Positions 20,129 through 32,228 of a DNA stretch of 35,750 nucleotides are shown one piece after another. The notes below the pieces were generated by a model that did no database searches, was not told the DNA's origin, and saw only the letters and a program-made list of their open reading frames with translations. Where the stretch lies: assembly GCF_944387245.1 (NCBI RefSeq), contig NZ_CALXEE010000017.1, positions 1 to 35,750 of the forward strand. The letters are read 5' to 3'. The position numbers and the translations under genes are program-made. Each line of letters starts with the position of its first letter. The first letter of the stretch is position 1. The stretch comes from an uncultured Intestinimonas sp. Lineage in GTDB: Bacteria; Bacillota; Clostridia; Oscillospirales; Oscillospiraceae.

Positions 20129-21460
20129 TCATTGCGGCAGCGGCCCCGCGCCGTCCCAGCGGTAGTGGGTGGCGGTGGCCTCCGGCACGTACAGATAGTC
20201 CCACTGGTGGTCGGTCTCCCGCATGTGCTCACTCGTCACGTTAAAATAGCGGTGGTGGCCCACCGAGTTGATGTTCCCGTTGCCCACAGTGGGGTCATCC
20301 CAGGTCACATCCACACAGTACCACTCCCCGTCCAGCTTCACCATGTTCCACGCATGGCTCTCCAGGGAGTCAAAAGCGGCCCCCACCACGGTAATGCACT
20401 CCACATCACACAGGTCCATGAGAAGCTGGAAGGTGGTGGAGTAGCCCAGGCAGTTGCCATAGCCCCCCACCAGGATGCCGTAGGGGTCCCGGTAGCCGGT
20501 ACGGCCGCTGTGGACCGGGTTGTTGTGCACCGTCTGGTCGTAGCTGCCGTGCTCCACGATCCAGTCGTGGACGGCCAGCTCCTTCTGAAAGTCGGTCATA
20601 TCCCCGGTGATGAGCTCCCCCAGCACCTCCCGGCATTTCTCCAGGATGGCGGCGTCCTTGTCGGAGAGCCCCTCCTCGTTGCCAGTCTCCCAGGCCGCCT
20701 TGATGGCAGAAGTGTCGTAGATCTCCATGTTGGCGTCGTTGGGCGCCACGAAAGGTACGAAACCGCTGATGTCAAGATCCGGGTTCAGGATGGGCCGTGG
20801 TGTGGCCTCCGGCGTCTCTGAGGGCCTCGGGGTGGGACTGGGTTCCGGCGTCGGAGTCGGAGTGGGCTCCGGCAGCTTCTCGGTCTCCGGCGCCATCACC
20901 GGGGTGGCCTCTGGCTCATCAGAGAACACAGGTAGGGTGGTCTCCTCTTCCACCGGCGGTGGAAGTTTCCCCGCCAGGCAGGCGTCAAAGGTCTCTTTTG
21001 CCGCCTCCGGGTCGTCGCAGACCAACAGGGCGGCATAGCTCCCCCGCTGGAGGACTACCGCCCGCTCCAGCCGGTCGGCTTCCTCCGGGGCGTAGCCGAA
21101 GAAGTCCCCCTGCCGCTCCAGCCGGTAGTTCTCCAACGTGTCCGCCGCTGTCTCCGCCGCCGCCTCGTCGGAGAGCAGCACCACGGTGATCTCCCGGGCG
21201 TCCATGCCGCCGGCGGTGTAGACCGCCCCATCCTCCCAGTCGGCCAGGCCGCAGAAGGCGGAGAGGTGGTCAGTGAGATCCTCTCCCTCCAGAACGGGCA
21301 GCCCGGCCAGGTCATCCTGACTTTCCACCACCGCACGGGCCAGCTCCGTCACCGTGACATCGGCGGGGGCGGGGGTGACCGTCTCCTGTCCGCCGCAGGC
21401 GGTGAGGGCAATGCACAGGCACAGGGCCGGCCAGAGGACTTTTTTTCCTGCTACGCTCAT
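20129..21460 (-). CDS. Lipoprotein with DUF4358-like and transglutaminase-like domains
   Basis: A 443-residue exported protein. The signal peptide ends in the lipobox LTAC, so Cys22 should be lipidated and the protein held on the outer face of the membrane. Residues about 35-162 resemble the DUF4358 family found in clostridial lipoproteins. A Pro/Thr/Glu linker covers about 165-225 (PTPTPTPEPSPTPRPSETPE and on). Residues about 260-435 are a transglutaminase/protease-like domain with a full triad: Cys337 (GNCLGYSTTF), His369 (SHAWNMV) and Asp384 (VDVTWDD). Such domains usually act as cysteine peptidases or amidases. ATG overlaps the uvrC stop (ATGA), with GGAGG 7 bases upstream, so it is co-translated with a DNA repair gene although its site of action is extracellular. 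Substrate unknown. Confidence 0.87.
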   Translation of the reverse strand: MSVAGKKVLWPALCLCIALTACGGQETVTPAPADVTVTELARAVVESQDDLAGLPVLEGEDLTDHLSAFCGLADWEDGAVYTAGGMDAREITVVLLSDEAAAETAADTLENYRLERQGDFFGYAPEEADRLERAVVLQRGSYAALLVCDDPEAAKETFDACLAGKLPPPVEEETTLPVFSDEPEATPVMAPETEKLPEPTPTPTPEPSPTPRPSETPEATPRPILNPDLDISGFVPFVAPNDANMEIYDTSAIKAAWETGNEEGLSDKDAAILEKCREVLGELITGDMTDFQKELAVHDWIVEHGSYDQTVHNNPVHSGRTGYRDPYGILVGGYGNCLGYSTTFQLLMDLCDVECITVVGAAFDSLESHAWNMVKLDGEWYCVDVTWDDPTVGNGNINSVGHHRYFNVTSEHMRETDHQWDYLYVPEATATHYRWDGAGPLPQ

Positions 21461-23307
21461 GGGATATCCTCCCCTGTTTCTGCCGCCGTTTGGGGATGAA
21501 AATGGTCGTAGACCGCCCGGGCAGTATTTTTGGGCACGGCCTCCTCCAGCGCCGCCAGTGAGGCCGCCTTAATGTTCTTGATGCTTTTGAAGTGCCGCAG
21601 CAGCTCGTTCCGCCGCTTCTCCCCCACCCCGGGAATCTGGTCCAGGGCGGAGCCCTTTACCCCCTTGGACTGCTGAAGGCGCTGGAACTCAATGGCGAAG
21701 CGGTGGGTCTCCTCCTGGATACGGCCCACCAGGGCAAAGACCGCCGGGATCTGTTGGATGCCGATCTCGCTGCCTGCCGGGTCCACCAGGGCCCGGGTGC
21801 GGTGGCGGTCGTCCTTTACCATACCGAAGACGGGGATGGAGAGCCCCGCCTCCTCCAGCACCCGGACGGCCACCCTGGCGTGGTTCTCGCCGCCGTCGAT
21901 GAAGAGGAGGTCGGGCAGGTCGCCGAACTTCTCGTCTCCGTCCAGGTACCGGCGGAACCGGCGGGTGAGGACCTGCTCCATGGAACCGTAGTCGTCGGCG
22001 TGGACCATGTCCTTGAGCTTGAAGTGGCGATAATCCCGCTTCAGCGGCCGGCCGTCCACAAAGACGGTCATAGAGGCTACAATGTTGGTGTCCCCGGTGT
22101 TGGAGATGTCGTAGGCCTCGATCCGTTTGGGCGGTTGGTCCAGCCCCAGCATCTTCCCCAGGGCCTCCATGAGCTTGGACTGCCGCTCCTCACGGGAGGT
22201 GGCCCGCTCCACCTCCTCCACGGCATTCTTGTTGGCCAGGCGGATGAGATCCATCTTGGCCCCCCGCTGGGGGGTCATGAGGGCCACCCGGTGGCCGCAG
22301 GCCTCAGAGAGCATCCGGGTCACCGGCACCTCATCCTCGATGTCGCAGGGCAGCAGAATCTGCCTGGGCAGAGCGCCCCGCCCACCGTAGTACTGCTTTA
22401 CCAGGGCGGAGACGGTGTCCTCTTTGGCCTCCTCCACCGGGGTCTCAATGAGATCCATGTCCTTGGCGGCCAGGTCGCCGTCCACAAAGTGGAGAACCAC
22501 AAAGCAGCTCTTGGCCTCCCCCCGGTGGAAACCCACAACGTCGGTGTCGGACAGGCTCCCCGCCACCACCTTCTGCCGCTTGCCCAGCAGCTCCATGGCG
22601 GCGATGCGGTCCCGGAGCTCGGCGGCCCGCTCGAAGCGCAGCTCCTCGGCGGCCTGCTCCATCTCAACCCGGAGGTCATCACAGACCTCCTCGTACTTCC
22701 CCTCCAGGAGACGGATGGCCTGGTCAATGTTCTCCCTATAACGGCTTTGGTCCATTTCCGGGCGGCAGTAGCCGTCGCACTGGCCCATGCGGTAGTAGAG
22801 GCAGGGCCGCTCCTTGCCGATGTCCCGGGGAAATTTTTTCCGGCACTTGGGCAGGCGCAGGGCGGACTGGATGGCCTCGATGATGTCCTGGGTGGCACCC
22901 CGGCTGCCGTAGGGGCCAAAGTACCGGGCACCGTCCTCCGCCGGCCGGTTTGCCAGGGAAAACTTGGGGTATGCCTCCTGGACGGTGAGGCGGATATAGG
23001 GATAGCCCTTGTCGTCCTTCAGGAGGATATTGTACCGGGGCTGGTGGCGCTTGATGAGGGAGCACTCCAGCACCAGGGCCTCGAACTCGCTGTCGGCGAT
23101 GATGACGTCAAAGTGGTCGATCTGGCTCACCATGGCCCGGGTCTTTTCCGTGTGGGAGGCCAGGTCGGCGAAATACTGGCTCACCCGGTTCTTGAGGGCC
23201 TTGGCCTTGCCCACGTAGATGACCTCGTTTTTGGCGTCCTGCATGATGTAGACGCCGGGCTTCAGCGGCAGGCTGTGCGCTTTTTCTTTCAGTTCGTCAA
23301 AGGTCAA
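21457..23307 (-). CDS. uvrC: Excinuclease ABC subunit C
   Basis: UvrC makes both incisions in nucleotide excision repair with UvrA and UvrB; 616 residues, near the usual length. The GIY-YIG nuclease is at about 12-95 (PGVYIM and VIYVGKAK), with a cysteine cluster CRKKFPRDIGKERPCLYYRMG around 155-180, the UVR motif near 203-238, the second nuclease (RNase H-like) and a C-terminal helix-hairpin-helix pair (LDQIPGVGEKRRNELLRHF). The start is TTG 23307; the leader AAGGCGGTGAT matches the anti-Shine-Dalgarno complement at 10 of 11 positions and ends 6 bases before TTG. A degenerate second copy of this start region lies 262 bp upstream. It appears to lead a row with the lipoprotein, rsmD, coaD and the coiled-coil gene. 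Confidence 0.95.
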   Translation of the reverse strand: MTFDELKEKAHSLPLKPGVYIMQDAKNEVIYVGKAKALKNRVSQYFADLASHTEKTRAMVSQIDHFDVIIADSEFEALVLECSLIKRHQPRYNILLKDDKGYPYIRLTVQEAYPKFSLANRPAEDGARYFGPYGSRGATQDIIEAIQSALRLPKCRKKFPRDIGKERPCLYYRMGQCDGYCRPEMDQSRYRENIDQAIRLLEGKYEEVCDDLRVEMEQAAEELRFERAAELRDRIAAMELLGKRQKVVAGSLSDTDVVGFHRGEAKSCFVVLHFVDGDLAAKDMDLIETPVEEAKEDTVSALVKQYYGGRGALPRQILLPCDIEDEVPVTRMLSEACGHRVALMTPQRGAKMDLIRLANKNAVEEVERATSREERQSKLMEALGKMLGLDQPPKRIEAYDISNTGDTNIVASMTVFVDGRPLKRDYRHFKLKDMVHADDYGSMEQVLTRRFRRYLDGDEKFGDLPDLLFIDGGENHARVAVRVLEEAGLSIPVFGMVKDDRHRTRALVDPAGSEIGIQQIPAVFALVGRIQEETHRFAIEFQRLQQSKGVKGSALDQIPGVGEKRRNELLRHFKSIKNIKAASLAALEEAVPKNTARAVYDHFHPQTAAETGEDIP

Positions 23308-23350
23308 AGGATAATCACCGCCTTGGGGCTAAATCATGGTCGGGGCAGCC
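23269..23350 (-). repeat. Flank duplication, copy A (true uvrC start region)
   Basis: These 82 bp hold the first codons of uvrC and its ribosome binding site. About 75 of 82 positions are identical to 23531-23612, in the same orientation and exactly 262 bp apart. Confidence 0.9.
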
Positions 23351-23530
23351 GCCCGCCTCGCGTGAAATCGAATGCCCTGTACTGACTGCGGAGCAGTCGG
23401 TACAGCGAGCTTTGCGAGGACTTTCGCGGGCTGAAAGCCCACGAAAGTTACGGCATTTTAGGGCAATTCACTTGCCCCGAGGATGTGAAATCGACCCCCA
23501 GGGACCCAAAAGCGCCTGCGCTTTTGGGAA
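23351..23530. repeat. Hairpin-rich non-coding insert between the uvrC start copies
   Basis: This 180-bp stretch has no gene. It holds four hairpins: a 13-bp stem with one G-T pair (23377-23405), an imperfect 12-bp stem (23421-23447), a 6-bp stem (23461-23477) and a perfect 11-bp stem with a 2-base turn (23505-23528). The words GTGAAATCGA occur twice, near 23362 and 23485. The 20-mer at 23464-23483 is repeated exactly, on the other strand, in the insert beside era at 31205-31224. It looks like a member of a small dispersed palindromic repeat family. Confidence 0.7.
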
Positions 23531-23612
23531 CAGGCTGTGAGCCTTTTCTTTCAGTTCGTCAAAGGTCAAAGGAACATCACCGCCTTGGGGCTAAATCATG
23601 GTTTGGACAGCC
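23531..23612 (-). pseudogene. Flank duplication, copy B: truncated uvrC start
   Basis: This second copy of the uvrC start region keeps the Shine-Dalgarno site and TTG and would encode TFDELKEKAHSL before leaving the uvrC sequence and running into the palindromic insert. Differences from copy A include two changes between the ribosome binding site and the start codon. It is a remnant, not a gene; whether ribosomes still load here is open. Confidence 0.8.
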
Positions 23613-23631
23613 TGCCGTTTGAGCGGCAGTA

Positions 23632-24450
23632 TCAGGACCGGGTCAGCCTGCGTCGGTTCTTCTCCCAGAACCGACGCTGGTACTTCAGGTTTGCCATCTC
23701 GGTCACCCGCCGGCTGGTGGAGAAGTTGCTGGCGCCGCCCACCACGCCGATAAGGGTCATGCCCTGGAGGAATTTGGGCACCAACATGGCGCCGGCCAGG
23801 GCCTTGGCCGCCTCCCGCATCTGGGCCTCCAGGTCCACCCAGGGAGCCTGATCCCGATCCAAAAGCCTTCCCAGCTCGTCTGCCCGGGCGCTGTACGACT
23901 GCCGGTCATGACCGTCAGCCAAGGCGGCACACAGGACCAGCAGGATATAGGACCGCTCCCCTTTGGTGTCATAGGCAAATCCGTACCGCACTGCCGTGTG
24001 GTAGATGGCCCTGAGCAGGATGGACATGAGAATCGGTATGTCGGGCAGGCCCATACTCAGCAGCCCCAGGACACACCCCTCCGCCGTCGCCGCCGCCGTG
24101 GTCAGCGTCCCGCTGAGAACGGCGCTCCGGTGAAAGGCACCCATGCTTCTGGCCCCCGGCGCCTTTTTGATGGCATACTCCTTGAGATAGCGCTCTCCCA
24201 ACAGCTTTCGCGTCGGGATGGTCCTCCCCAGCAGGCCGGTTCCTCGCTGAAACAGCACCTGAAAAGCGGTATAAAAGGCTGTATCCATGGTGTGGATCAG
24301 CTTATCCGGCACCCGCTTTTCCGCCCAGGACATAATACGCCCCTTCCGCCGGGCCGCATCCCGTCGGAACATTTGCTCCTCCCGGCGCCGGAGCCGCTCC
24401 AGCTGCCGGTCATATTCCCGTGACAGCTCACCCAAAGGTATCACTTCCAT
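23632..24450 (-). CDS. EcsC-family protein
   Basis: A 272-residue protein of the EcsC family, named after the third gene of the Bacillus ecs locus, biochemical role unknown. The N-terminal REYDRQLERLRRREEQMFRR helix, the VPDKLIHTMDTAFYTAFQVLFQRGTGLL segment (read as adjoining pieces VPDKLIHTMDTAFYTAF and QVLFQRGTGLL), and the glycine-rich LLSMGLPDIPILMSILLRAIY with FAYDTKGERSYILLVL fit the family. The last third has a hydrophobic AGAMLVPKFLQGMTLIGVVGG stretch. The ATG at 24450 lacks a clear ribosome binding site and lies only nine bases from a bidirectional terminator; the ATG of MFRRD has GGAGG 5 bases upstream and could be used instead, but the longer form keeps the family's N-terminal helix. 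Confidence 0.82.
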   Translation of the reverse strand: MEVIPLGELSREYDRQLERLRRREEQMFRRDAARRKGRIMSWAEKRVPDKLIHTMDTAFYTAFQVLFQRGTGLLGRTIPTRKLLGERYLKEYAIKKAPGARSMGAFHRSAVLSGTLTTAAATAEGCVLGLLSMGLPDIPILMSILLRAIYHTAVRYGFAYDTKGERSYILLVLCAALADGHDRQSYSARADELGRLLDRDQAPWVDLEAQMREAAKALAGAMLVPKFLQGMTLIGVVGGASNFSTSRRVTEMANLKYQRRFWEKNRRRLTRS

Positions 24451-24456
24451 AAGATC

Positions 24457-24485
24457 AAAAAAAGCGCCGCATTGCGGCGCTTTTT
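24457..24485. terminator. Terminator after ptsH (symmetrical)
   Basis: GCGCCGC-ATT-GCGGCGC (24464-24480) is flanked by an A-run on the left and a T-run on the right, so it can work in both directions. It ends the HPr transcript 14 bases after the stop codon. Confidence 0.88.
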
Positions 24486-24499
24486 CTGCAGAGATCGGG

Positions 24500-24763
24500 T
24501 TACTCCGAGAAGTTACTGGAGATCAGCTCGATGAGCGCCTCGACGGCTTCCTTCTCGTCGGGACCGTCCGCGATCAGGTTGATGGCGGTGCCCTTCACGA
24601 TGCCCAGAGAGAGGACACCCAGCAGGCTCTTGGCATTCACCCTGCGCTCGTCCTTCTCCACCCAGATGGAACTCTTGAACTCATTGGCCTTCTGGATGAA
24701 AAATGTAGCCGGCCTAGCGTGGAGACCCACCTGATTGTTCACAACAGCCTCTTTGATATACAA
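24500..24763 (-). CDS. ptsH: HPr-family phosphocarrier protein
   Basis: An 87-residue HPr, the small carrier that passes phosphate from enzyme I to sugar-specific enzymes II and, when phosphorylated on serine, signals to CcpA in Gram-positive bacteria. His15 lies in the active-site GLHARPA, and Ser46 in NAKSLLGVLSLG is the expected HPr-kinase target, so both functions look possible. The start is TTG 24763, 8 bases after GAGGGGGG, giving the normal MYIKEAVV beginning; in-frame ATGs upstream lie in the leader, and one overlaps the -10 element. It has its own promoter and terminator and stands alone, without ptsI. A role mainly in regulation (as in Crh-like proteins) cannot be excluded, though His15 is kept. 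Confidence 0.93.
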   Translation of the reverse strand: MYIKEAVVNNQVGLHARPATFFIQKANEFKSSIWVEKDERRVNAKSLLGVLSLGIVKGTAINLIADGPDEKEAVEALIELISSNFSE

Positions 24764-24778
24764 TTTGTGTTCCCCCCT

Positions 24779-24796
24779 CAAACAATGCAATGTTTG
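24779..24796 (-). promoter_or_regulatory. Hairpin at the 5' end of the ptsH mRNA
   Basis: CAAACA-TTGCAT-TGTTTG on the - strand begins at the predicted transcription start (about 24797) and ends two bases before the ribosome binding site. It could be a 5' stability hairpin or an operator; the sequence does not decide. Confidence 0.5.
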
Positions 24797-24803
24797 CATA
24801 TCT

Positions 24804-24832
24804 AGCATACCAAATTTCGGTGAAACCGTCAA
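24804..24832 (-). promoter_or_regulatory. Sigma-A promoter of ptsH
   Basis: On the - strand TTGACG (24827-24832), 17 bases, TATGCT (24804-24809). Confidence 0.8.
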
Positions 24833-24993
24833 TGACATTTTGCACAAATTCACGGAGATTCGCAAGGAAAATTCGCTCTTGTGCTCAGTGCGCCGTCAAA
24901 ATAGACTCATTTTCCCCATTTCGCAGAAAAAACATGGCACTTTTATCCAGTTTTAGTCCTTCTCTCTCAAAAAGTCCTTTTTTGGAGAAACAT

Positions 24994-27369
24994 TCAGCGC
25001 AGCTCCACCACAGTCACGCCGTCCTCACCCTCACCGAACCGGCCGGGACGGAAGGATTTGACGTACTTGCTCCGCTTCAGGTGGTCCCGCACCGCCTTGC
25101 GGACGGCACCGGTGCCCTTGCCGTGGATGACCGTCACCGTGTCCAGCCGGCCCATGACGGCGCTGTCCAGGAAGCGGTCCAGCACCAGCAGGGCCTCGTC
25201 GGTCATCATGCCCCGCAGGTCCACCTCGGGGGAGGCCCCCAGAGAGCGCAGCTTGTGCTCGGCCCGCTGGGCAATCTGGACGGCCTGCTTCTTGCCGCTA
25301 TCGGCGTCCTCCACCACCCGGACCTCCTCCTGCTTGGCGGTAATCTTCAAAATGCCCGCCTGAAGCTGGAGGGAACCGTCCTTGTTGACGGAGATGACAT
25401 TGGCCCGGGTGCCCATCTTCACCAGCTCCACCGTATCCCCCGCCTTGGCGGGTCGGGTGGGCGGCGGCGCCGGCAGGTCCTCATGGGACCCCAGGGCGTC
25501 CTCGGCCTCATTGAGCTGCCGGCGCAGGTCGGACCGCCGCTGGTTCTGCTCCAGCCAGTCGGCCTCCTTCTCCTGGCGGCGGCGCATCTCGTTGAGCTCG
25601 GCAAAGACCTTGTCGGCGGTGTCCCGGGCCTCCTGTATGATGGCACGGGCCTCGGCCTGGGCCTTCTCCACCGCCTTGGCCTTCTCCTTCTCCAGCTTCT
25701 CCCGGTACTCCCGGGCGGTCTTGGCCGACTCCTCCATCTCCCGTCGGAGCTTCCGGGCCTCGTCCTTCTCCTTCTCCATCTGCTGGCGCTGCCGGTCCAG
25801 CTGGGTGAGGACATCCTCGAAGCGGACGTTCTCGGCGTCGATGCGGGCGGCGGCCTTGTCGATGATGGCCTGGGGCAGCCCCAGGCGGCGGGAGATGGCA
25901 AAGGCGTTGGACTTGCCCGGCACCCCGATGAGGAGCTTATAGGTGGGGGCCAGAGTCTCCACATTAAACTCGCAGGAGGCGTTCTCCACCCCCTTGGTGG
26001 TCATGGCGTACACCTTCAGCTCGGCGTAGTGGGTGGTGGCGCACACCAGGGCCCCCCGCTCCCGGGCCGACTCAATGATGGCGGCGGCCAGGGCGGCGCC
26101 CTCCACCGGGTCGGTGCCCGCCCCCAGCTCGTCGAAGAGGATGAGGGAGCCAGGACCGCACTCCTCCAGAATGCCCACGATGTTTACCATGTGGGAAGAG
26201 AAGGTGGACAAACTCTGGGCAATGGACTGCTCGTCGCCGATGTCGGAGAGCACATGGTCAAAGACCACCACGGTGCTGTCGTCGTCGGCGGGGATGTGGA
26301 GGCCGCACTGGGCCATGAGGGTCAGCAGGCCGATGGTCTTGAGGGTCACCGTCTTGCCGCCGGTGTTGGGGCCGGTGATGACCAGGGTATCAAATTGGTC
26401 CCCCAGGTAGAGGTCGTTGGGCACCGCCTTCTTGGGGTCCAGCAGGGGGTGGCGGGCCTTCCGCAGGGTGATGCCCTTCTTGGCCAGCTTGGGCTCGGTG
26501 CAGCGCAGCTTATCCGACAGCCGGGCCCGGGCAAAGATGCAGTCGATGAGGACAAGGAGGTCGTAGTCCTGGGCGATGTCCTCCTTGTGGGCGGCGCACT
26601 CGGCGGAGAGTTCCCGGAGGATGCGCTCGATCTCCTTCTCCTCCCGGGACTGGAGCTCCCGCAGCTCGTTGTTGGTCTTGACCACCGCCATGGGCTCAAT
26701 GAAGAAGGTGCCGCCGGAGCCGGACACGTCGTGGACCAGGCCGGGGATCTCGTTCTTGCACTCCGACTTCACCGGCACCACGTACCGGCCGGAGCGCATG
26801 GTGATGATGGACTCCTGGAGGTACTTGGCCTGGGAGGAGGAGATGAGCTTTTGGAGGATATCCCGGACCTTGGAGGAGGACGCCCGGATGTGCCGCCGGA
26901 TATCGGCCAGTTCGGGGCTGGCGGCGTCGGCAATCTCCTCCTCGGAGAGGATGGACCCGCTGATCCGGTCCTCCAAATACCGGTTAGCCTGGAGGGAGGA
27001 GAAGAGGTGGTCGATGCAGGTCTTGGCGTTGCCCTCCCCGGTGGCGTACTCCTTGGCGGAGCGGGCGCAGCGCAGGAGGGCGGCGATGTCCAGCAGCTCC
27101 CGGGTGTTGAGGGCGCCCCCCATATCGGCCCGCTGGAGGGAGGCCGCCACCGGCCGGACACCGGAGAGGGGCGGGGTACCCCGGAGGACGATCATGGAGC
27201 AGGCTGCGGAGGTCTCCTTCTGGAGACGCTGGACGTCGTCGGGGTCGGTGTAGGGCCGCAGGGCCCGGCACCGGTCCTTGCCCTCCTCGGTGGCCGCCTG
27301 GGCGGCCAGCAACTCCAGCACCCTGGGCAGCTCCAGGGTCTGGATGGATTTTTCAAACAGATCGGTCAT
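24994..27369 (-). CDS. mutS2: MutS2-family ATPase/endonuclease with Smr domain
   Basis: MutS2, 791 residues, the usual length. Despite its name it does not serve mismatch repair; members suppress homologous recombination or, in Bacillus, rescue collided ribosomes. The core has the P-loop GPNTGGKT at 333-340, Walker B SLILFDELGAGTDP and the ABC signature region before it. A long coiled coil (about 515-620, rich in Glu/Lys/Arg) leads to the KOW-like strand and the C-terminal Smr nuclease domain at about 713-791, with VDLRGMMTDEALL and the HGKGTGAVR loop. The start is the ATG 31 bases after the PhzF gene. It is the last gene of the yqzL-recO row. Confidence 0.95.
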   Translation of the reverse strand: MTDLFEKSIQTLELPRVLELLAAQAATEEGKDRCRALRPYTDPDDVQRLQKETSAACSMIVLRGTPPLSGVRPVAASLQRADMGGALNTRELLDIAALLRCARSAKEYATGEGNAKTCIDHLFSSLQANRYLEDRISGSILSEEEIADAASPELADIRRHIRASSSKVRDILQKLISSSQAKYLQESIITMRSGRYVVPVKSECKNEIPGLVHDVSGSGGTFFIEPMAVVKTNNELRELQSREEKEIERILRELSAECAAHKEDIAQDYDLLVLIDCIFARARLSDKLRCTEPKLAKKGITLRKARHPLLDPKKAVPNDLYLGDQFDTLVITGPNTGGKTVTLKTIGLLTLMAQCGLHIPADDDSTVVVFDHVLSDIGDEQSIAQSLSTFSSHMVNIVGILEECGPGSLILFDELGAGTDPVEGAALAAAIIESARERGALVCATTHYAELKVYAMTTKGVENASCEFNVETLAPTYKLLIGVPGKSNAFAISRRLGLPQAIIDKAAARIDAENVRFEDVLTQLDRQRQQMEKEKDEARKLRREMEESAKTAREYREKLEKEKAKAVEKAQAEARAIIQEARDTADKVFAELNEMRRRQEKEADWLEQNQRRSDLRRQLNEAEDALGSHEDLPAPPPTRPAKAGDTVELVKMGTRANVISVNKDGSLQLQAGILKITAKQEEVRVVEDADSGKKQAVQIAQRAEHKLRSLGASPEVDLRGMMTDEALLVLDRFLDSAVMGRLDTVTVIHGKGTGAVRKAVRDHLKRSKYVKSFRPGRFGEGEDGVTVVELR

Positions 27370-27400
27370 GGATGGTTCTCCTTGCAGGTTTTACGATGTA

Positions 27401-28267
27401 TCAGAGCAGCTGGGCCCGGAGGGTGAGCACCGCCCGTCCCCCCACCCGGACCCGGACCCCGTCCGGCCCTTCGGTGAGGCGGCTGAGGATCTCGGAGGGC
27501 TTGCCCATCTTCTCCCCCTGAACAAAGCGGTTCTCTATCCCGGCGGAGATCCTGCCCCGGCGGTAGAGGTAGTAGGTCAGGGCGCCGTTGGAGGTGCCGG
27601 TGGCGGCCTCCTCGGGGATGGCATAGAGGGGGGCGAAGTTCCGGCAGTGGGCGGCGGCCTCCTCATTGAGGCAGGGCCAGAACATATGGACCCCTACCAC
27701 ACCGTAGCGCTTGGACAGCTCGGTAACGGCCCGCTCGTCCTGCTCGGCTTTCTCCAGGGCCGCCATACTGCTTACAGGCAGCAGGATATCCTGGAGGCCG
27801 GTGCTCACCACCATGGGGACAAAGCCCTCTGGGCAGTCCGTCGCGCTCAGGCCGTAGGCGGCGTAGAGCTCCGCCGTCTCCTCAGGGGAGAAGCTCCGGC
27901 CCTCCACCGGCGGTGCCATATCCATCCACACCGCCTGGTCGGAGACCTGGATGCTCAGCTCCCCCGCCAGGGTGGAGGCCCGGTAGGTGCCCGGCGCCAG
28001 GCCCTCGTCCTCCCGCAGAGTGGTGAAGGCAGCGATGGTGGCGTGGCCGCACAGGTCCACCTCCCCCTCCGGGGTGAAGTAGCGCAGGCGGAAGGAGTCC
28101 GGCCCGGTGGGCCGGACAAAGGCGGTCTCGGAGTGCTTGAGCTCGGCGGCCAGGGCCTGACAGAAGGCGGCGGTAAGTTCCGGCTCCTCCGGAGTCAGCA
28201 GAGCCACCCCCGCCTGATTGCCGGAAAAACGCTGGGTGGTAAAGGCGTCCACGATGTAGAGCTTCAC
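27401..28267 (-). CDS. PhzF-family isomerase-like protein
   Basis: A 288-residue member of the PhzF superfamily, diaminopimelate-epimerase-fold enzymes that include phenazine-pathway isomerases and many proteins of unknown substrate. The N-terminus IVDAFTTQRFSGNQAGVALL, the HSETAF motif with Glu47 at the catalytic position, and DLCGHATIAA at 71-80 are typical. In the second half, GTSNGALTYYLYRRG corresponds to the second half-barrel's turn. No other phenazine genes are nearby, so phenazine synthesis is not implied. The start is GTG 28267, overlapping the recO stop as GTGA, with GGAGG 9 bases upstream; it is translationally coupled to recO. Confidence 0.88.
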   Translation of the reverse strand: MKLYIVDAFTTQRFSGNQAGVALLTPEEPELTAAFCQALAAELKHSETAFVRPTGPDSFRLRYFTPEGEVDLCGHATIAAFTTLREDEGLAPGTYRASTLAGELSIQVSDQAVWMDMAPPVEGRSFSPEETAELYAAYGLSATDCPEGFVPMVVSTGLQDILLPVSSMAALEKAEQDERAVTELSKRYGVVGVHMFWPCLNEEAAAHCRNFAPLYAIPEEAATGTSNGALTYYLYRRGRISAGIENRFVQGEKMGKPSEILSRLTEGPDGVRVRVGGRAVLTLRAQLL

Positions 28268-29049
28268 GGCGCAGTACCTCCTGGTTGTTGTTGGGCCGCC
28301 GGAGCGGCGTCAGTGAGCTGATGATAAAAGTCCAGGGTGCGGAAGCCCCGGTCCAGCTGGGTGCGGAGGAAATCTTCACAGGCGGTGGACATTTTGGCCA
28401 TGCCGGGGGCGTCCATGGGGAAGGAGAAGAGCCGCTTGGGGTCGCCGTACACCACATGGCGCATGGCGGCCAGACTGGTGGCGTCCAGGGTGCGGCTGGC
28501 GCCGTCCCCCAGGCCGCAGGCGGCGCAGTGGAGGACGCCCTCCTCGATGTCCAGACGGGGGTCCGCCGGCTCCTCCGCGCCGCAGACGGCGCAGGCGTCC
28601 AGCAGGGGCTCATAGCCCGCCACACAGAGGAGCTTGAGTTCGAAGGCCGCCTTCACCAATGGGAGGGGCTTTTTCAGCTTGTCCAGGGCATAGAGGGAGT
28701 TGAGCACCAGGGAAAGGAGGGCCTGGTCGGGTCGCCCCTCCTCGGCCACCGCCTCGGCCACCTCTGCGAAGTAGGAGCCCAGGGCCAGCTTATCCACATC
28801 GGAGCGCACCCCCCAGAAGAGCTCCAGAGGCTCGGCCTCGTTGAGAGTGAGCTTGTCCCGGTAGTCGAAGAGGGTCATGTCCGACCACACCAGTAGCTGG
28901 GCGGAGGCGGCCAGGGGGCTGTTCTTCCGGCGGCAGCCCCGGGCCTTCACCGTCCGCCTGCCCCCCTCCCGGGTGAGCACGGTAAGGATCTTGTCCGCCT
29001 CTTTGTAATTGGTCTCCCTGAGGATGAGTCCCTGGGTCTTGACGTGCAT
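28264..29049 (-). CDS. recO: DNA repair protein RecO
   Basis: RecO helps load RecA on SSB-coated single-stranded DNA with RecR (RecFOR pathway); 261 residues. The N-terminal OB fold begins KTQGLILRETNYKEADKILT, followed by the helical domain and a zinc site with Cys153, Cys156, Cys175 and Cys178 (CAVC and CAAC). The C-terminus DFLRTQLDRGFRTLDFY is conserved. The extra Ala/Gln-rich tail is short. AGGTGAT lies just before ATG 29049. It follows yqzL by 36 bases, as in Bacillus. Confidence 0.93.
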   Translation of the reverse strand: MHVKTQGLILRETNYKEADKILTVLTREGGRRTVKARGCRRKNSPLAASAQLLVWSDMTLFDYRDKLTLNEAEPLELFWGVRSDVDKLALGSYFAEVAEAVAEEGRPDQALLSLVLNSLYALDKLKKPLPLVKAAFELKLLCVAGYEPLLDACAVCGAEEPADPRLDIEEGVLHCAACGLGDGASRTLDATSLAAMRHVVYGDPKRLFSFPMDAPGMAKMSTACEDFLRTQLDRGFRTLDFYHQLTDAAPAAQQQPGGTAP

Positions 29050-29085
29050 AGCATCACCTGTATGTAAGGGGCGCTGAACGCGCCC

Positions 29086-29193
29086 CTATGCGGTCTTTTC
29101 CGCCTCCTCCGCCTCCAGCAAAAGGCGGTAGAGGGCGTAGGCCTCCGGCAGTCCGGTGGCCAGAAAGAGTTCCCAAAGCATCTGACTGTTCAC
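29086..29193 (-). CDS. yqzL: YqzL-family small protein
   Basis: A 35-residue protein upstream of recO whose core reads LWELFLATGLPEAYALYRLL. This matches the pattern of Bacillus YqzL (an aromatic residue, then F..TG...AYLLYK.L), a tiny protein of unknown function encoded between era and recO. Position and sequence agree, though the protein is too short for certainty. The start is GTG 29193, with AAAGGGGG 11 bases upstream inside the loop of a hairpin; ATG 29181 (31 residues) is the alternative. A 7-bp hairpin (29068-29086) begins at its stop codon, ahead of recO. Confidence 0.75.
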   Translation of the reverse strand: MNSQMLWELFLATGLPEAYALYRLLLEAEEAEKTA

Positions 29194-29370
29194 GATCCAT
29201 CAGGCCCCCTTTAGGTCTAGGTTGCCTGATGCCATGACGGGCCATACGCGGTAAATTTTGTCCTTCGCCTATCCTATACCATCGTTTTACCGCTCCGAGG
29301 GCCGTCCCGCCAAAATCTTGTGACGGTTATGCGCCGCTGTTATATCCCATATCCCGGAACCCATATCGTG
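29194..29370 (-). promoter_or_regulatory. Structured 5' leader of the yqzL-recO transcript
   Basis: About 177 nt lie between the predicted start of transcription and yqzL. They hold a perfect 8-bp helix GCGGTAAA/TTTACCGC (29248-29255 with 29286-29293, 30-nt loop), a CCGTC/GACGG helix, and a perfect 7-bp helix ATCAGGC/GCCTGAT (29199-29205 with 29224-29230) whose loop contains the yqzL ribosome binding site. No known riboswitch consensus was recognised. Confidence 0.45.
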
Positions 29371-29376
29371 GGATTC

Positions 29377-29405
29377 ATTATAGCATCAAACGCCCCCATC
29401 CGCAA
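29377..29405 (-). promoter_or_regulatory. Sigma-A promoter of yqzL-recO-phzF-mutS2
   Basis: On the - strand TTGCGG (29400-29405), 17 bases, TATAAT (29377-29382), with an extended TGC before the -10. It diverges from the sigma-factor promoter 60 bp to the right. Confidence 0.8.
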
Positions 29406-29465
29406 GGCACAATGCGCTCTCGTCCCCGCTCAATCATCGGTCTGCGCACCGTCTCCGGTCCCGTA

Positions 29466-29494
29466 TTGACATCCGGCTGGACGTATCGTATAAC
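29466..29494 (+). promoter_or_regulatory. Sigma-A promoter of the ECF sigma/partner operon
   Basis: TTGACA (29466-29471) is a perfect -35, followed by 17 bases and TATAAC (29489-29494). The gene therefore looks transcribed by the main sigma factor; no ECF-type AAC/CGT promoter was seen. Confidence 0.82.
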
Positions 29495-29584
29495 TGGGTT
29501 ATGAAAAAGCCGAGATTTCTGTGAGATTGCCGCGCCGATGCCGTGTATATGGATAGAAGGGCCCATCCGAAAAGGAGGGAGCTT

Positions 29585-30145
29585 ATGGAGGACAGCCTGA
29601 TCGTGCAGCTGTACTGGGACAGAGCCCAGGAGGCCATCCCGGCCACATCGGAGAAGTATGGAAACTACTGCGGAGCCATCGCCTGGAACATCCTGGGCAG
29701 CCAGGAGGATGCCGAGGAGTGCGTCAACGACACCTGGCTGAGGGCGTGGAACTCCATGCCGCCCCACAAGCCGTCGCTCCTCTCCGCCTTTCTGGGCAAG
29801 ATCACGCGGAACCTGGCCTTTGACCGTTTTTCCTTCCTCCGGGCGGAAAAGCGGGGTGGCGGCGAGCTGCCCGCCGTTCTGGAGGAGCTGGGAGAGTGCG
29901 TTTCCGGGACTGGCGACGTGGAGCGGGCTGTGGATGAGTGGGAGCTGGCACGGGCCATCGACGACTTCCTGGCCGCATTGCCGCCAGCCAAGCGAGATGT
30001 CTTCATCCGCCGGTACTGGTACACGGAGCCCATCTCCGCCATCGGCAGGCGCTATGGCATGCGGGACGGCGCCGTGTCCATGACCCTCAGCCGCCTGCGG
30101 CAGAAACTGCGCATCCACCTCATGGAAAGGGGGTTTGAACCGTGA
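29585..30145 (+). CDS. ECF-type RNA polymerase sigma factor
   Basis: A 186-residue sigma-70 family factor with regions 2 and 4 only. Region 2 is around YCGAIAWNILGSQEDAEECV and DTWLRAWNSMPP (about 28-62), followed by SLLSAFLGKITRNLAFDRF. Region 4 is LPPAKRDVFIRRYWYTEPIS then AIGRRYGMRDGAVSMTLSRL near 135-180. ATG 29585 is chosen because AAGGAGGG lies 5 bases upstream; the frame is open to 29543 but without a site. Its stop overlaps the next gene's GTG start (GTGA), so the two are co-translated. The pair lies between era and yqzL-recO, on the opposite strand. The signal and target genes are unknown. Confidence 0.9.
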   Translation: MEDSLIVQLYWDRAQEAIPATSEKYGNYCGAIAWNILGSQEDAEECVNDTWLRAWNSMPPHKPSLLSAFLGKITRNLAFDRFSFLRAEKRGGGELPAVLEELGECVSGTGDVERAVDEWELARAIDDFLAALPPAKRDVFIRRYWYTEPISAIGRRYGMRDGAVSMTLSRLRQKLRIHLMERGFEP

Positions 30146-30990
30146 AAAGGGAAACCCTCTATCGGGCCATCGGAGGCATCGACATGAAGTGGGTGGCAGA
30201 GTCGGAAGGCCCTCGGAAGAAGAAACGCGCCCGGGCCAGGTGGGGCGCTCTGGCCGCCTGTCTCTGCCTCCTGGCCGCAGCGCCCCTTCTCCTTTGGGCG
30301 CTGAACACATTCCCGTTTTCTCCCTTCCCAGCGGGGGGCGGGAGCGCTCCGCCGAACATCACCATCGACGGCAGGACATTTTGCGTCTCCTCCCATGTGT
30401 TCGTCTCCTCCGAGCTGCCCGACGGTTTCTCGCTTGCGGGGGAGATCACTGTGGCGGATTCGGGGCTTGGAGATTGTCCGTACTATTTGAACCCGGACAT
30501 CCCGGAGTGGGTGTATGTGTACCATGAGGTCAACACCGACGGAACTCTTGACGCCTTGGGCCACTTAAACCGGACAGAGCCCCATAAGGCCTATGTGCGC
30601 TACGTTGACCAGCAGCTGCGGGGTAAGGGCTTGCTCTGCTATCAAGGGGATCTCTATATCTCCATGTGGAGTGCTGACTACTATGGGGACGATCCCGATG
30701 TCTCTGAAGCGTATTACGATGAAATGGAGGAAAGATTCGGGGCCAGAATTGACGGCGATGCTCCGGACGGCTTTGTATCCGTCGGGATCGCAACCTTTTC
30801 CGGCGATGACACCATCCCGACCGGGACCCTCTCCAGCAACCAAGGCCAGGCGGAGGTGTATTGTTCCCCCAATGAGCTGGACGTAGCTCTGATCAGGACC
30901 CATTGGTTCACCTCTACAAAGGAGGAGGGCGGAGAGACCAGACACGAGGGATTTGACGTCTATATCCGCTATGACGCCCCTTTTGAATGA
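30142..30990 (+). CDS. Membrane-anchored partner of the ECF sigma factor (probable anti-sigma)
   Basis: A 282-residue protein with a cytoplasmic N-terminus (MKRETLYRAIGGIDMKWVAE), a basic stretch, one membrane helix at about 34-55 (WGALAACLCLLAAAPLLLWA) and an extracellular domain of about 225 residues rich in Asp, Gly and Tyr. Topology and GTGA coupling to the sigma gene make an anti-sigma or sensor role likely: the short N-terminal segment would hold the sigma factor and the outer domain would sense. No ZAS zinc motif (HxxxCxxC) is present, so it is not a classical zinc anti-sigma. The outer domain was not recognised. A terminator follows. Confidence 0.75.
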   Translation: MKRETLYRAIGGIDMKWVAESEGPRKKKRARARWGALAACLCLLAAAPLLLWALNTFPFSPFPAGGGSAPPNITIDGRTFCVSSHVFVSSELPDGFSLAGEITVADSGLGDCPYYLNPDIPEWVYVYHEVNTDGTLDALGHLNRTEPHKAYVRYVDQQLRGKGLLCYQGDLYISMWSADYYGDDPDVSEAYYDEMEERFGARIDGDAPDGFVSVGIATFSGDDTIPTGTLSSNQGQAEVYCSPNELDVALIRTHWFTSTKEEGGETRHEGFDVYIRYDAPFE

Positions 30991-31017
30991 TACCCCAAGT
31001 CTTTGTCCCCATAAAAA

Positions 31018-31065
31018 GGAAGGAGCCCTGGCGCTGGCACGGCCAAGGCTCCTTCCCTATTTTTT
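31018..31065 (+). terminator. Rho-independent terminator after the sigma/partner operon
   Basis: GGAAGGAGCC (31018-31027) pairs perfectly with GGCTCCTTCC (31047-31056) around a structured 19-base loop; T-run at 31060-31065. Confidence 0.88.
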
Positions 31066-31100
31066 GCGAGTAAACTGGCTCCAAGCGGCGTCTGTGCCAG

Positions 31101-31153
31101 GTCAGTCCTCCCGGTAACCAACATCGTGGATGAAATTCAGGTTATCACGCCAG
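31101..31153 (-). pseudogene. Duplicated 3' end of era (remnant)
   Basis: These 53 bp match the true end of era (31331-31383) at 52 of 53 positions and encode the same last residues, WRDNLNFIHDVGYRED and stop; the one difference is synonymous. Weaker similarity continues about 35 bp to the left (from about 31066). The copies are exactly 230 bp apart in the same orientation. Confidence 0.9.
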
Positions 31154-31330
31154 CTTGCCCCACGGAATGTCCCATTCCGCGGGGACCCCGAATTTCATTT
31201 CAATTCCTCGGGGCAAGTGAATTGTCCCTGCGGCAAGGTCCGGGCCATGTGGACCGGAAATTTGGACGCGCCGGACGGTGCGGCGCGCCTGCACGCGCAA
31301 GAAAACTGGCCTTGACGGTGTATGTGCCCC
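31154..31330. repeat. Hairpin-rich non-coding insert between the era 3'-end copies
   Basis: This 177-bp stretch has no supported gene. It holds a hairpin with 12-base arms and one mismatch (31158-31169 with 31173-31184), a CGCGCCG/CGGCGCG hairpin near 31267-31289, and at 31205-31224 the 20-mer also found (opposite strand) in the uvrC insert at 23464-23483. The similarity of the two inserts extends with mismatches on one side of the 20-mer for about 15 more bases. Confidence 0.7.
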
Positions 31331-31383
31331 GTCAGTCCTCCCGGTAACCAACGTCGTGGATGAAATTCAGGTTATCACGCCAG
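31331..31383 (-). repeat. Flank duplication, true 3' end of era
   Basis: This is the genuine end of era, the partner of the remnant at 31101-31153 (52 of 53 identical). Confidence 0.9.
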
Positions 31384-32228
31384 TTTTCTTTGACCTTTAC
31401 CCAGGTTTCCAGGTAGACCTTGGTGCCCATGAAGGCCTCGATGTCTTTCCGGGCCAGGGAGGAGATCTTTTTCAGCATGGCGCCGTTCTTGCCGATGATG
31501 ATGCCCTTGTGGCTGGCCTTCTCACAGAAGATGGTGGCATCGATGTCGATGATGCCGCTGTCGATGCGCTCGGAGAACTTGGTGAGCTCCACCGCCGTGC
31601 CGTGGGGGATCTCCTTGTCCAGGCACAGGAGGAGTTTTTCCCGGATGATCTCGGCGCACACCTGCCGCTCGGGCTGGTCGGTGACCATGTCCTCTGGGAA
31701 GAGCTGGGGGCCTTCGGGTAGATAGGCCGCCAGGAGGTCCAGCAGCTCCTCCACCCCCTCGCCGGTCTTGGCGGAGATAGGGACGATGGCCTGGAAGTCA
31801 TGGACGGCCTGGTAGGTCTGCATAACGGCCAAGAGCTTCTCCTTCTCCACCGTATCGATCTTGTTGATGACCAGCACCGCGGGGACACCCAGACCCTTGA
31901 TGCGCTCGATGAGCTCGGCCTCGGGGGCGCCCACATTGGGGATGGGCTCCACCAGCAGGAGCACGGCGTCCACATCGGCCACACTCTCCTTCACCACTCC
32001 CACCATATACTCGCCCAGCCGGGTCCGTGCCTTGTGGAGGCCGGGGGTGTCCATGAACACATACTGGCACTCCCCCCGGTTGACGATGGCGCAGATGCGG
32101 TTCCGGGTGGTCTGGGGCTTGTTGGTTACGATGGCGATCTTCTCTCCCACCAGGGCGTTGGTCAGGGTGGACTTGCCCACATTGGGCCGGCCCACAATAG
32201 AGATCATGCCGGATTTTTTGATTTCCAT
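31332..32228 (-). CDS. era: GTPase Era
   Basis: Era is a GTP- and RNA-binding protein that assists maturation of the 30S subunit by binding the 3' end of 16S rRNA; 298 residues, normal length. The GTPase motifs are G1 GRPNVGKS at 13-20, G2 PQTTRNRI, G3 DTPG near 59-62, and G4 NKID near 121-124. The C-terminal KH domain shows HKGIIIGKNGAMLKKI, and the ending VKENWRDNLNFIHDVGY is conserved. GAGG is 7 bases before the ATG. The last 17 codons are duplicated downstream, leaving the gene itself intact. It lies 53 bases after ybeY; the cdd and dgkA genes present here in Bacillus are absent. Confidence 0.97.
   Translation of the reverse strand: MEIKKSGMISIVGRPNVGKSTLTNALVGEKIAIVTNKPQTTRNRICAIVNRGECQYVFMDTPGLHKARTRLGEYMVGVVKESVADVDAVLLLVEPIPNVGAPEAELIERIKGLGVPAVLVINKIDTVEKEKLLAVMQTYQAVHDFQAIVPISAKTGEGVEELLDLLAAYLPEGPQLFPEDMVTDQPERQVCAEIIREKLLLCLDKEIPHGTAVELTKFSERIDSGIIDIDATIFCEKASHKGIIIGKNGAMLKKISSLARKDIEAFMGTKVYLETWVKVKENWRDNLNFIHDVGYRED

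Follow-up and report, generated by a model that had tools for sequence, protein, structure and literature searches.

The DNA analyzed here, referred to as the window, comprises 35,750 nucleotides from an uncultured Intestinimonas sp. (assembly GCF_944387245.1, contig NZ_CALXEE010000017.1, positions 1 to 35,750). It carries two inserts, each next to a gene on the minus strand, that contain related copies of a small structured element. One of the genes is era; the other we take to be uvrC, a name given in an earlier note on this DNA that fits known UvrC features. The earlier note had seen one exact 20-mer in both inserts, on opposite strands, and long direct repeats on either side of each, and both observations hold. 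None of 100 shuffles of the window contained two matches to the 20-mer, even at three mismatches, i.e., the pair is beyond chance. The repeats are 90% identical at uvrC (23269–23355 and 23531–23617) and 92% identical at era (see Table 1). At era, the repeat is the 3' end of the gene and the element runs sense to it; at uvrC, it is the 5' end, i.e., the start region, and the element runs antisense. The uvrC insert is composite: the shared family accounts for just the right ~70 bp, and the left ~110 bp are similar to a second repeat family.

The 20-mer is part of a structured unit of ~150 nt, in which it forms the loop and the 3' arm of a hairpin, P4. A covariance model (R1) matched the era insert at 31157–31309 with 125.4 bits and the uvrC insert at 23394–23529 with an E-value of 5.1e-4, E-values of this model being rough. 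The predicted fold of 31157–31304 had a z-score of −3.45. Across 96 distinct copies, a 43-pair structure had 92.2% paired cells and two-sided changes at 33 pairs, its covariation score was 0.436 versus 0.151 when shuffled and at most 0.089 when slid, and 698 cells had two-sided changes versus 229 in shuffles, figures that favour the structure, since the copies had been aligned to the model and several of the added pairs came from that alignment. Hairpins B, C and P4 and the terminal hairpin carry this signal. Support is weak for a pseudoknot that would join the P4 loop to the GTGAA after it (78.5% paired, two-sided changes at one pair). In the stems, G-T exceeded A-C oppositions (98 versus 43, or 61 versus 43 with one pair left out), a modest hint of an RNA form. 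A known Rfam family was rejected, since no match reached the gathering score in the window and 19 loci gave five weak matches at E≤1, all below gathering and none an intron. Nor does the element look like a plain terminator, the alternative named in the earlier note: its stems covary, its terminal hairpin abuts the second gene end with no T-run in 25 copies inspected (no terminator scan was made), and 71 of 76 era loci do without the element.

Searches of the own genome (G000; 136 contigs, 82% complete) found the 20-mer at eight places with at most two mismatches, and at none for a reversed control. As DNA queries, the uvrC insert gave 11 matches (E≤3.5e-5) and the era insert 22 (E≤3.2e-4), self matches and repeats included. 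The covariance model, built from 17 aligned inserts, gave 44 matches at E≤1 and 41 at E≤0.01. It also matched 23 of 60 related genomes, among them all 11 genus members, one of which (G007) had a single weak match. In an order-wide sample, the element was present in 42 of 297 genomes, i.e., in 22 of 145 genera, which is a lower bound owing to strict filters. Viral contigs gave no match to one exact degenerate pattern. The earlier reading of a dispersed, non-coding, hairpin-rich element with flank duplications is hence supported: a direct repeat was found at 178 of 232 copies and was not detectable at the other 54. The data come mostly from metagenome-assembled genomes, and the fetched copies are mostly the best-scoring ones, so that distant copies are under-sampled. 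Orthologous loci and copies are not independent, and the 232 copies count one or more of them twice (L143/L363) and include tandem members and a locus of genome G003 (L335) that is apparently the same as L147. Copies and duplication also occur in the one-contig genome G008 and in the complete public genome AP018533.1; they are therefore not an assembly artefact.

In element orientation, the unit reads gene..x, first repeat copy (DR1), guide, scaffold of ~140 nt, and second repeat copy (DR2) starting with t, where x and t are the two sides of the insertion point and the guide is the reverse complement of x.t. The gene adjoining DR1 remains whole. In the 178 copies with a repeat, it begins at the 3' end of the element and is mostly the end of the neighbouring gene. 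Repeats have a median length of 65 bp (5–95% range 34–108 bp) and a median identity of 95.7%, and lie a median of 152 nt apart (5–95% range 124–197). Of 73 scored copies, 63 have the same sense as the gene running into the repeat. The stop codon ends 25–85 nt downstream of the junction, with one outlier at 401 nt, and in 21 of the 63 sense loci the repeat ends at stop +0 or +1. Those of the 25 antisense copies that were inspected duplicate gene 5' ends, the genes being, to judge by their peptides, presumably uvrC, truB, lepA, uvrB and rpiB. Tandem arrays are common, and no clear rule emerged for which copy decays. In one array, at a gene we take to be secA, two elements only ~76% alike occupy one site.

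Such repeats could be read as long target-site duplications of a non-autonomous element resembling a miniature inverted-repeat transposable element (MITE) or a retro-element, where a transposase or reverse transcriptase acting in trans nicks the strands 40–100 bp apart and gap filling duplicates the gene end. The range of repeat lengths would suit this explanation, as would the identity of the two copies in 20 of 161 equal-length pairs, and linear group II intron RNA, as PMC2518211 describes it, is joined by its 3' end to the 3' exon, the cleavage of the second strand being a separate event. We nevertheless consider it rather unlikely: repeats that stop at the stop codon are not what a blind nick would leave, no reverse transcriptase was consistently present (RVT_1 in 3 of 11 genomes), and the divergence of the two copies, described below, is not that of a dead sequence.

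The guide comprises ~12–15 nt at the start of the element, between DR1 and the scaffold, and is complementary to both sides of the insertion point. Ungapped guide scores reached at least 8 in 68 of 83 copies, compared with 65 of 1660 mismatched pairings with other loci (3.9%), and in 122 of 151 sense copies of a larger set. The junction was spanned in 60 of 73 copies scoring at least 7. Coverage spans roughly −4 to +8 relative to the insertion point, and pairing drops outside; in 143 copies, 90–95% of bases paired between −2 and +4 and roughly half did so at −6 and at +9, values inflated by the choice of copies with scores of at least 8. A G occupies position −2 in 58 of 83 copies. The guide sequence mostly tracks the local gene sequence and would provide site specificity. 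If the element were MITE-like or a retro-element, the guide would be a by-product (snap-back, template jump), or would work as the exon-binding site of a group II intron does when a linear RNA undergoes partial reverse splicing. A mechanism in which only t is copied by snap-back was discarded, as the guide also covers several nucleotides upstream of the junction. A chance origin was likewise rejected, because shuffles, the reversed-pattern control and mismatched guides all stayed far below the observed values.

Table 1. Features at the era and uvrC loci of the window and copies of the second repeat family
Feature	Position	Strand	Basis
era coding sequence	31332..32228	-	open reading frame list; 80 era relatives
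era DR1: end of the working gene, junction to 16 nt beyond the stop codon	31316..31386	-	
era guide GCCAGTTTTCTT, complementary to the x/t junction between 31386 and 31387	31299..31310	-	inverted repeat 31299–31310 / 31379–31390, 100%
Scaffold (body) of the era copy, with hairpins B, C and P4, the GGGGTCCCC word and the terminal hairpin	31157..31298	-	covariance model and fold
Shared 20-mer at era, loop and 3' arm of P4	31205..31224	-	
era DR2: second copy of the era end, immediately after the element 3' end	31086..31156	-	
uvrC coding sequence	21457..23307	-	open reading frame list
uvrC DR1: working start region (ribosome-binding site, start, first codons), junction 23268/23269	23269..23350	-	
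Segment like the second repeat family, replacing the element 5' half	23351..23459	+	70–89% matches at C82, C60, C5, C58
Element 3' half at uvrC: P4, GGGACCC word, terminal hairpin; antisense to uvrC	23460..23530	+	R1 match, fold
Shared 20-mer at uvrC	23464..23483	+	
uvrC DR2: second copy of the start region	23531..23612	-	
Guide-like remnant ACAGCCTGCCG at the far end of uvrC DR2, complementary to 23266–23276	23607..23617	+	inverted repeat 23259–23276 / 23607–23624, 83%
Further copies of the second repeat family (G000)	C82:9034-9147, C60:5766-5884, C5:32916-33020, C58:12426-12461		

Across species and genera, the same nucleotide of the same gene is occupied, with guides that mostly fit the local sequence. 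The era junction AAAGA|AAACTGG is occupied in the window, in the genomes G009, G005 and G003 (L147), and at the loci L149 (Flavonifractor An10), L188, L214 and L154 (AP018533.1); guides at this site mostly track local codon differences, with mismatches in L188, L214 and L094. Other recurrent targets include genes that we take, from their peptides, to be uvrB, asnS, gdhA, tpiA, ychF, mnmG and lepA, as well as response regulators. When similarity of element bodies was used as a test of independent insertion, close species often ranked first and more distant ones did not, the bodies averaging ~69% identity. We also surveyed 80 era loci of another collection, 76 of them evaluable. All five occupied loci had a second gene end (scores 41–100) and guide scores of 7–13, four of them 10–13. 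Among the 71 element-free loci, one (L177, perhaps an undetected variant) had a second end and one (L166) a guide score of at least 9; several reached 7–8, and the score of 7 at the occupied locus L214 is therefore within background. That 70 of 71 element-free loci have a single gene end would also be expected of a MITE-like or retro-element.

A further alternative is an ordinary intergenic repeat, with hairpins like those of repetitive extragenic palindromes (REP) or terminators, whose copies arise by tandem duplication and gene conversion with no guided insertion. Tandem arrays of near-identical units speak for it, as does the concerted evolution of the uvrC copies described below. Yet guides match their own junctions far better than others, junctions recur at the same nucleotide across genera, and 70 of 71 element-free era loci lack the second end, which together render this explanation very improbable.

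At an era locus 97% like that of the window (L145), one gene end and no element are found, with a decayed guide-like stretch. Guide-like remnants also lie at the far end of DR2 at both window loci (31066–31079 and 23607–23617), which suggests lost second copies.

The two repeat copies were compared codon by codon at clean sense loci, with frames assigned by a codon model that had been trained on 13 genes of the window. Of 135 sense loci with a coding score above 0.3, 119 were used (tandem and odd-length ones excluded), and removal of three cut by contig ends left 116. Another such comparison excluded 15 listed copies, five with indels, and the antisense ones. At the 116 loci, 338 synonymous and 82 nonsynonymous codon changes separate DR1 from DR2, and third positions make up 71% of the mismatches versus about 46% expected for a dead second copy by our own estimate (p 1e-30). 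DR2 has kept its frame and a stop within two codons in 111 of 116 loci; the era DR2 of the window, with one synonymous and one nonsynonymous change, has retained both. A left-right gradient of mismatches was not significant (p 0.14). The MITE-like or retro-element explanation, by contrast, predicts a dead copy with mainly nonsynonymous drift.

Synonymous divergence with conserved frame and stop would also result if DR1, guide and scaffold were spliced out as an intron, such that the same protein arises from spliced or unspliced mRNA and the guide holds x and the t of DR2 in the manner of a group I internal guide. The prevalence of the sense orientation and the strong structure agree with such an intron. 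However, antisense copies at gene 5' ends favour third positions too (20 of 33 coding mismatches, e.g., 7 of 7 at L292), which strand-specific splicing could not bring about; we therefore downgraded splicing. The antisense copies lean towards the synonymous tendency on few data; 7 of 25 antisense repeat pairs contain indels, some beyond the coding part, and L120 has a frame shift. Moreover, of the two copies DR1 matches the guide better and DR2 is the more relaxed, the sole frequent junction base is the G at −2, and no Rfam intron matched. An intron thus appears improbable.

Between species, 74 pairs were compared, 14 of which were misaligned by frame, leaving 60 in frame. In a comparison over 29 pairs, at equal synonymous change, nonsynonymous changes numbered 55 between DR2 copies versus 30 between DR1 copies (p 0.01); such roughly twofold change is expected if DR2 is a formerly functional, displaced gene end. 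The uvrC copies evolve in concert within species. The uvrC DR2 copies of G009, G006 and G010 share a change that is absent from their DR1, pointing to old duplications with concerted evolution. In the upstream uvrC copy (L225, L316, L324), the same CTG to GGG change is seen in three species, the rest of the repeat being species-specific. From these patterns, working gene ends seem to be the origin of both copies, whichever strand carries the element, with thinner evidence for the antisense copies. This disfavours splicing as well as a simple dead target duplication, and it fits a homing-like turnover of units with allelic exchange, as in the WHO homing elements of Torulaspora/Lachancea yeasts (PMC7282813, in excerpt).

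We hence propose, giving it an even chance, that the sequences described here represent a homing-type, guide-bearing, non-coding element that keeps the host gene whole by means of a gene-end copy that is either carried along or newly made. Acting as RNA or as single-stranded DNA, the guide would pair with x.t and set the 3' end of the scaffold at t, where the scaffold would be joined and the old gene end shifted downstream as DR2. The gene-side copy would restore the gene, either from a donor allele or, at first insertion, by gap filling across a wide staggered break. As the target x.t survives, insertion could repeat and build up [gene end-guide-element] units in tandem. Both copies would then be kept similar to working gene ends by turnover of presence and absence and by allelic recombination, and the enzyme would act in trans. 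More tentatively, as a possibility we would not bet on, this may be a protein-free RNA-guided homing element of gut Clostridia that rewrites its 12–15-nt guide for each target, enters at the matching point close to a gene end and rebuilds that end, which would let a single scaffold spread to dozens of different genes and leave them unharmed.

Several observations weigh against this proposal. By the main cut, 54 of 232 copies lack the repeat, and in G042, a genome of another family, 13 of 15 copies checked lack it even at a looser cut. The antisense copies are few, and broken DR2 copies (L120) are among them. In 58 of the 60 in-frame pairs, the two copies of at least one species are closer to each other than to their orthologues, in none are orthologues closer than both own-copy pairs, and no donor allele was identified. 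At positions of t that distinguish the two repeat copies, the guide matches DR1 in 45 cases, DR2 in 14 and neither copy in eight, with no sign of a recoded, resistant site as in WHO elements; an occupied allele retains its own target, and a guided nuclease would cut it too. Guide mismatches show no excess of G-T over A-C (59 versus 77, p 0.14). As for an enzyme, RVT_1 occurred in only 3 of 11 genomes (five proteins, viewed by eye) and was absent from the own genome, and IscB RRXRR domains gave no match in 17 genomes, where controls were equally silent. The open reading frame list of one element-rich region of G008 also gave no result. Because the guide favours DR1 and occupied alleles keep the target, the present system does not simply reproduce WHO-type nuclease homing.

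The 88 model matches in G042 include L103 and L254–L280; in the seven copies aligned, conservation extends further into the 3' flank, which probably marks a different sub-family. Variants of the element occur at L246, L247, L251 and L088; the 3' part of the first three continues into a further conserved hairpin, and ARAGORN placed a tRNA gene near three of the four (L247, L251, L088). The second repeat family met at uvrC has the form GGGGGAGCGCGAGGGGGC...GGACTTTTC-hairpin-GAAAGTAACGGCATTTTT, and two of its copies (L010, L018) also lie between direct repeats, of 77 and 31 bp. Element copies lie within ~500 bases of a contig end in the G000 contigs C31, C22, C26, C82, C90, C49, C102, C13, C60 and C23. 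The repeats seem to break assemblies, and the element may account for the breaks at such places in these genomes.

If the proposal is true, the element would represent a bacterial class of guide-bearing mobile RNA or DNA with its targeting in a short, changeable segment and its target genes left whole. Discovery of the enzyme would then bear on guide acquisition, on the evolution of gene ends in Oscillospirales, and possibly on programmable insertion. New relative to the earlier note are the target-complementary guide, the insertion points fixed across species, and the synonymous divergence of the repeats.

We found no published description of the element in the open-access PMC literature and could not match its arrangement to a known mobile element. 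IscB/OMEGA guide RNAs also carry a 5' guide of ~15 nt ahead of a structured scaffold; here, in contrast, the guide is the reverse complement of the flank and not a copy, and the search for IscB was silent, as were its controls. Group I introns possess an internal guide sequence (P1/P10) that likewise pairs with both flanks, its 5' half with the downstream and its 3' half with the upstream flank. Unlike them, the element has no Rfam group I match and no conserved U at −1, and its antisense copies show similar repeat evolution. Mobile group II introns in linear-RNA retrohoming pair, according to PMC2518211, with the target at the insertion point, and partial reverse splicing would leave the downstream target attached to the 3' end of the RNA, the arrangement found here. 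They differ in that the present element lacks an Rfam intron match, is only ~150 nt long, is flanked by repeats of 34–108 bp, and bears a new guide at each site. With prokaryotic MITEs, as outlined in part of PMC10969869, it shares a short, non-autonomous, dispersed form between direct repeats. It is, however, GC-rich, its repeats are tens of bp from gene ends and of no short fixed length, and, in place of constant terminal inverted repeats, its 5' end is complementary to the target, the guide/t partners varying by locus and deriving from the target. WHO elements (PMC7282813, again in excerpt) differ in encoding a homing endonuclease, whereas the median of 152 nt between repeats holds no gene here; they mainly target FBA1, whereas many genes, 5' ends included, and a short guide are involved here; and they have a recoded resistant site. 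The present unit may, like the WHO unit, carry a copy of the target gene 3' end and shift the native end downstream. In both systems, the gene is left whole, tandem clusters of elements and gene fragments are formed, and diverse elements occupy one target site.

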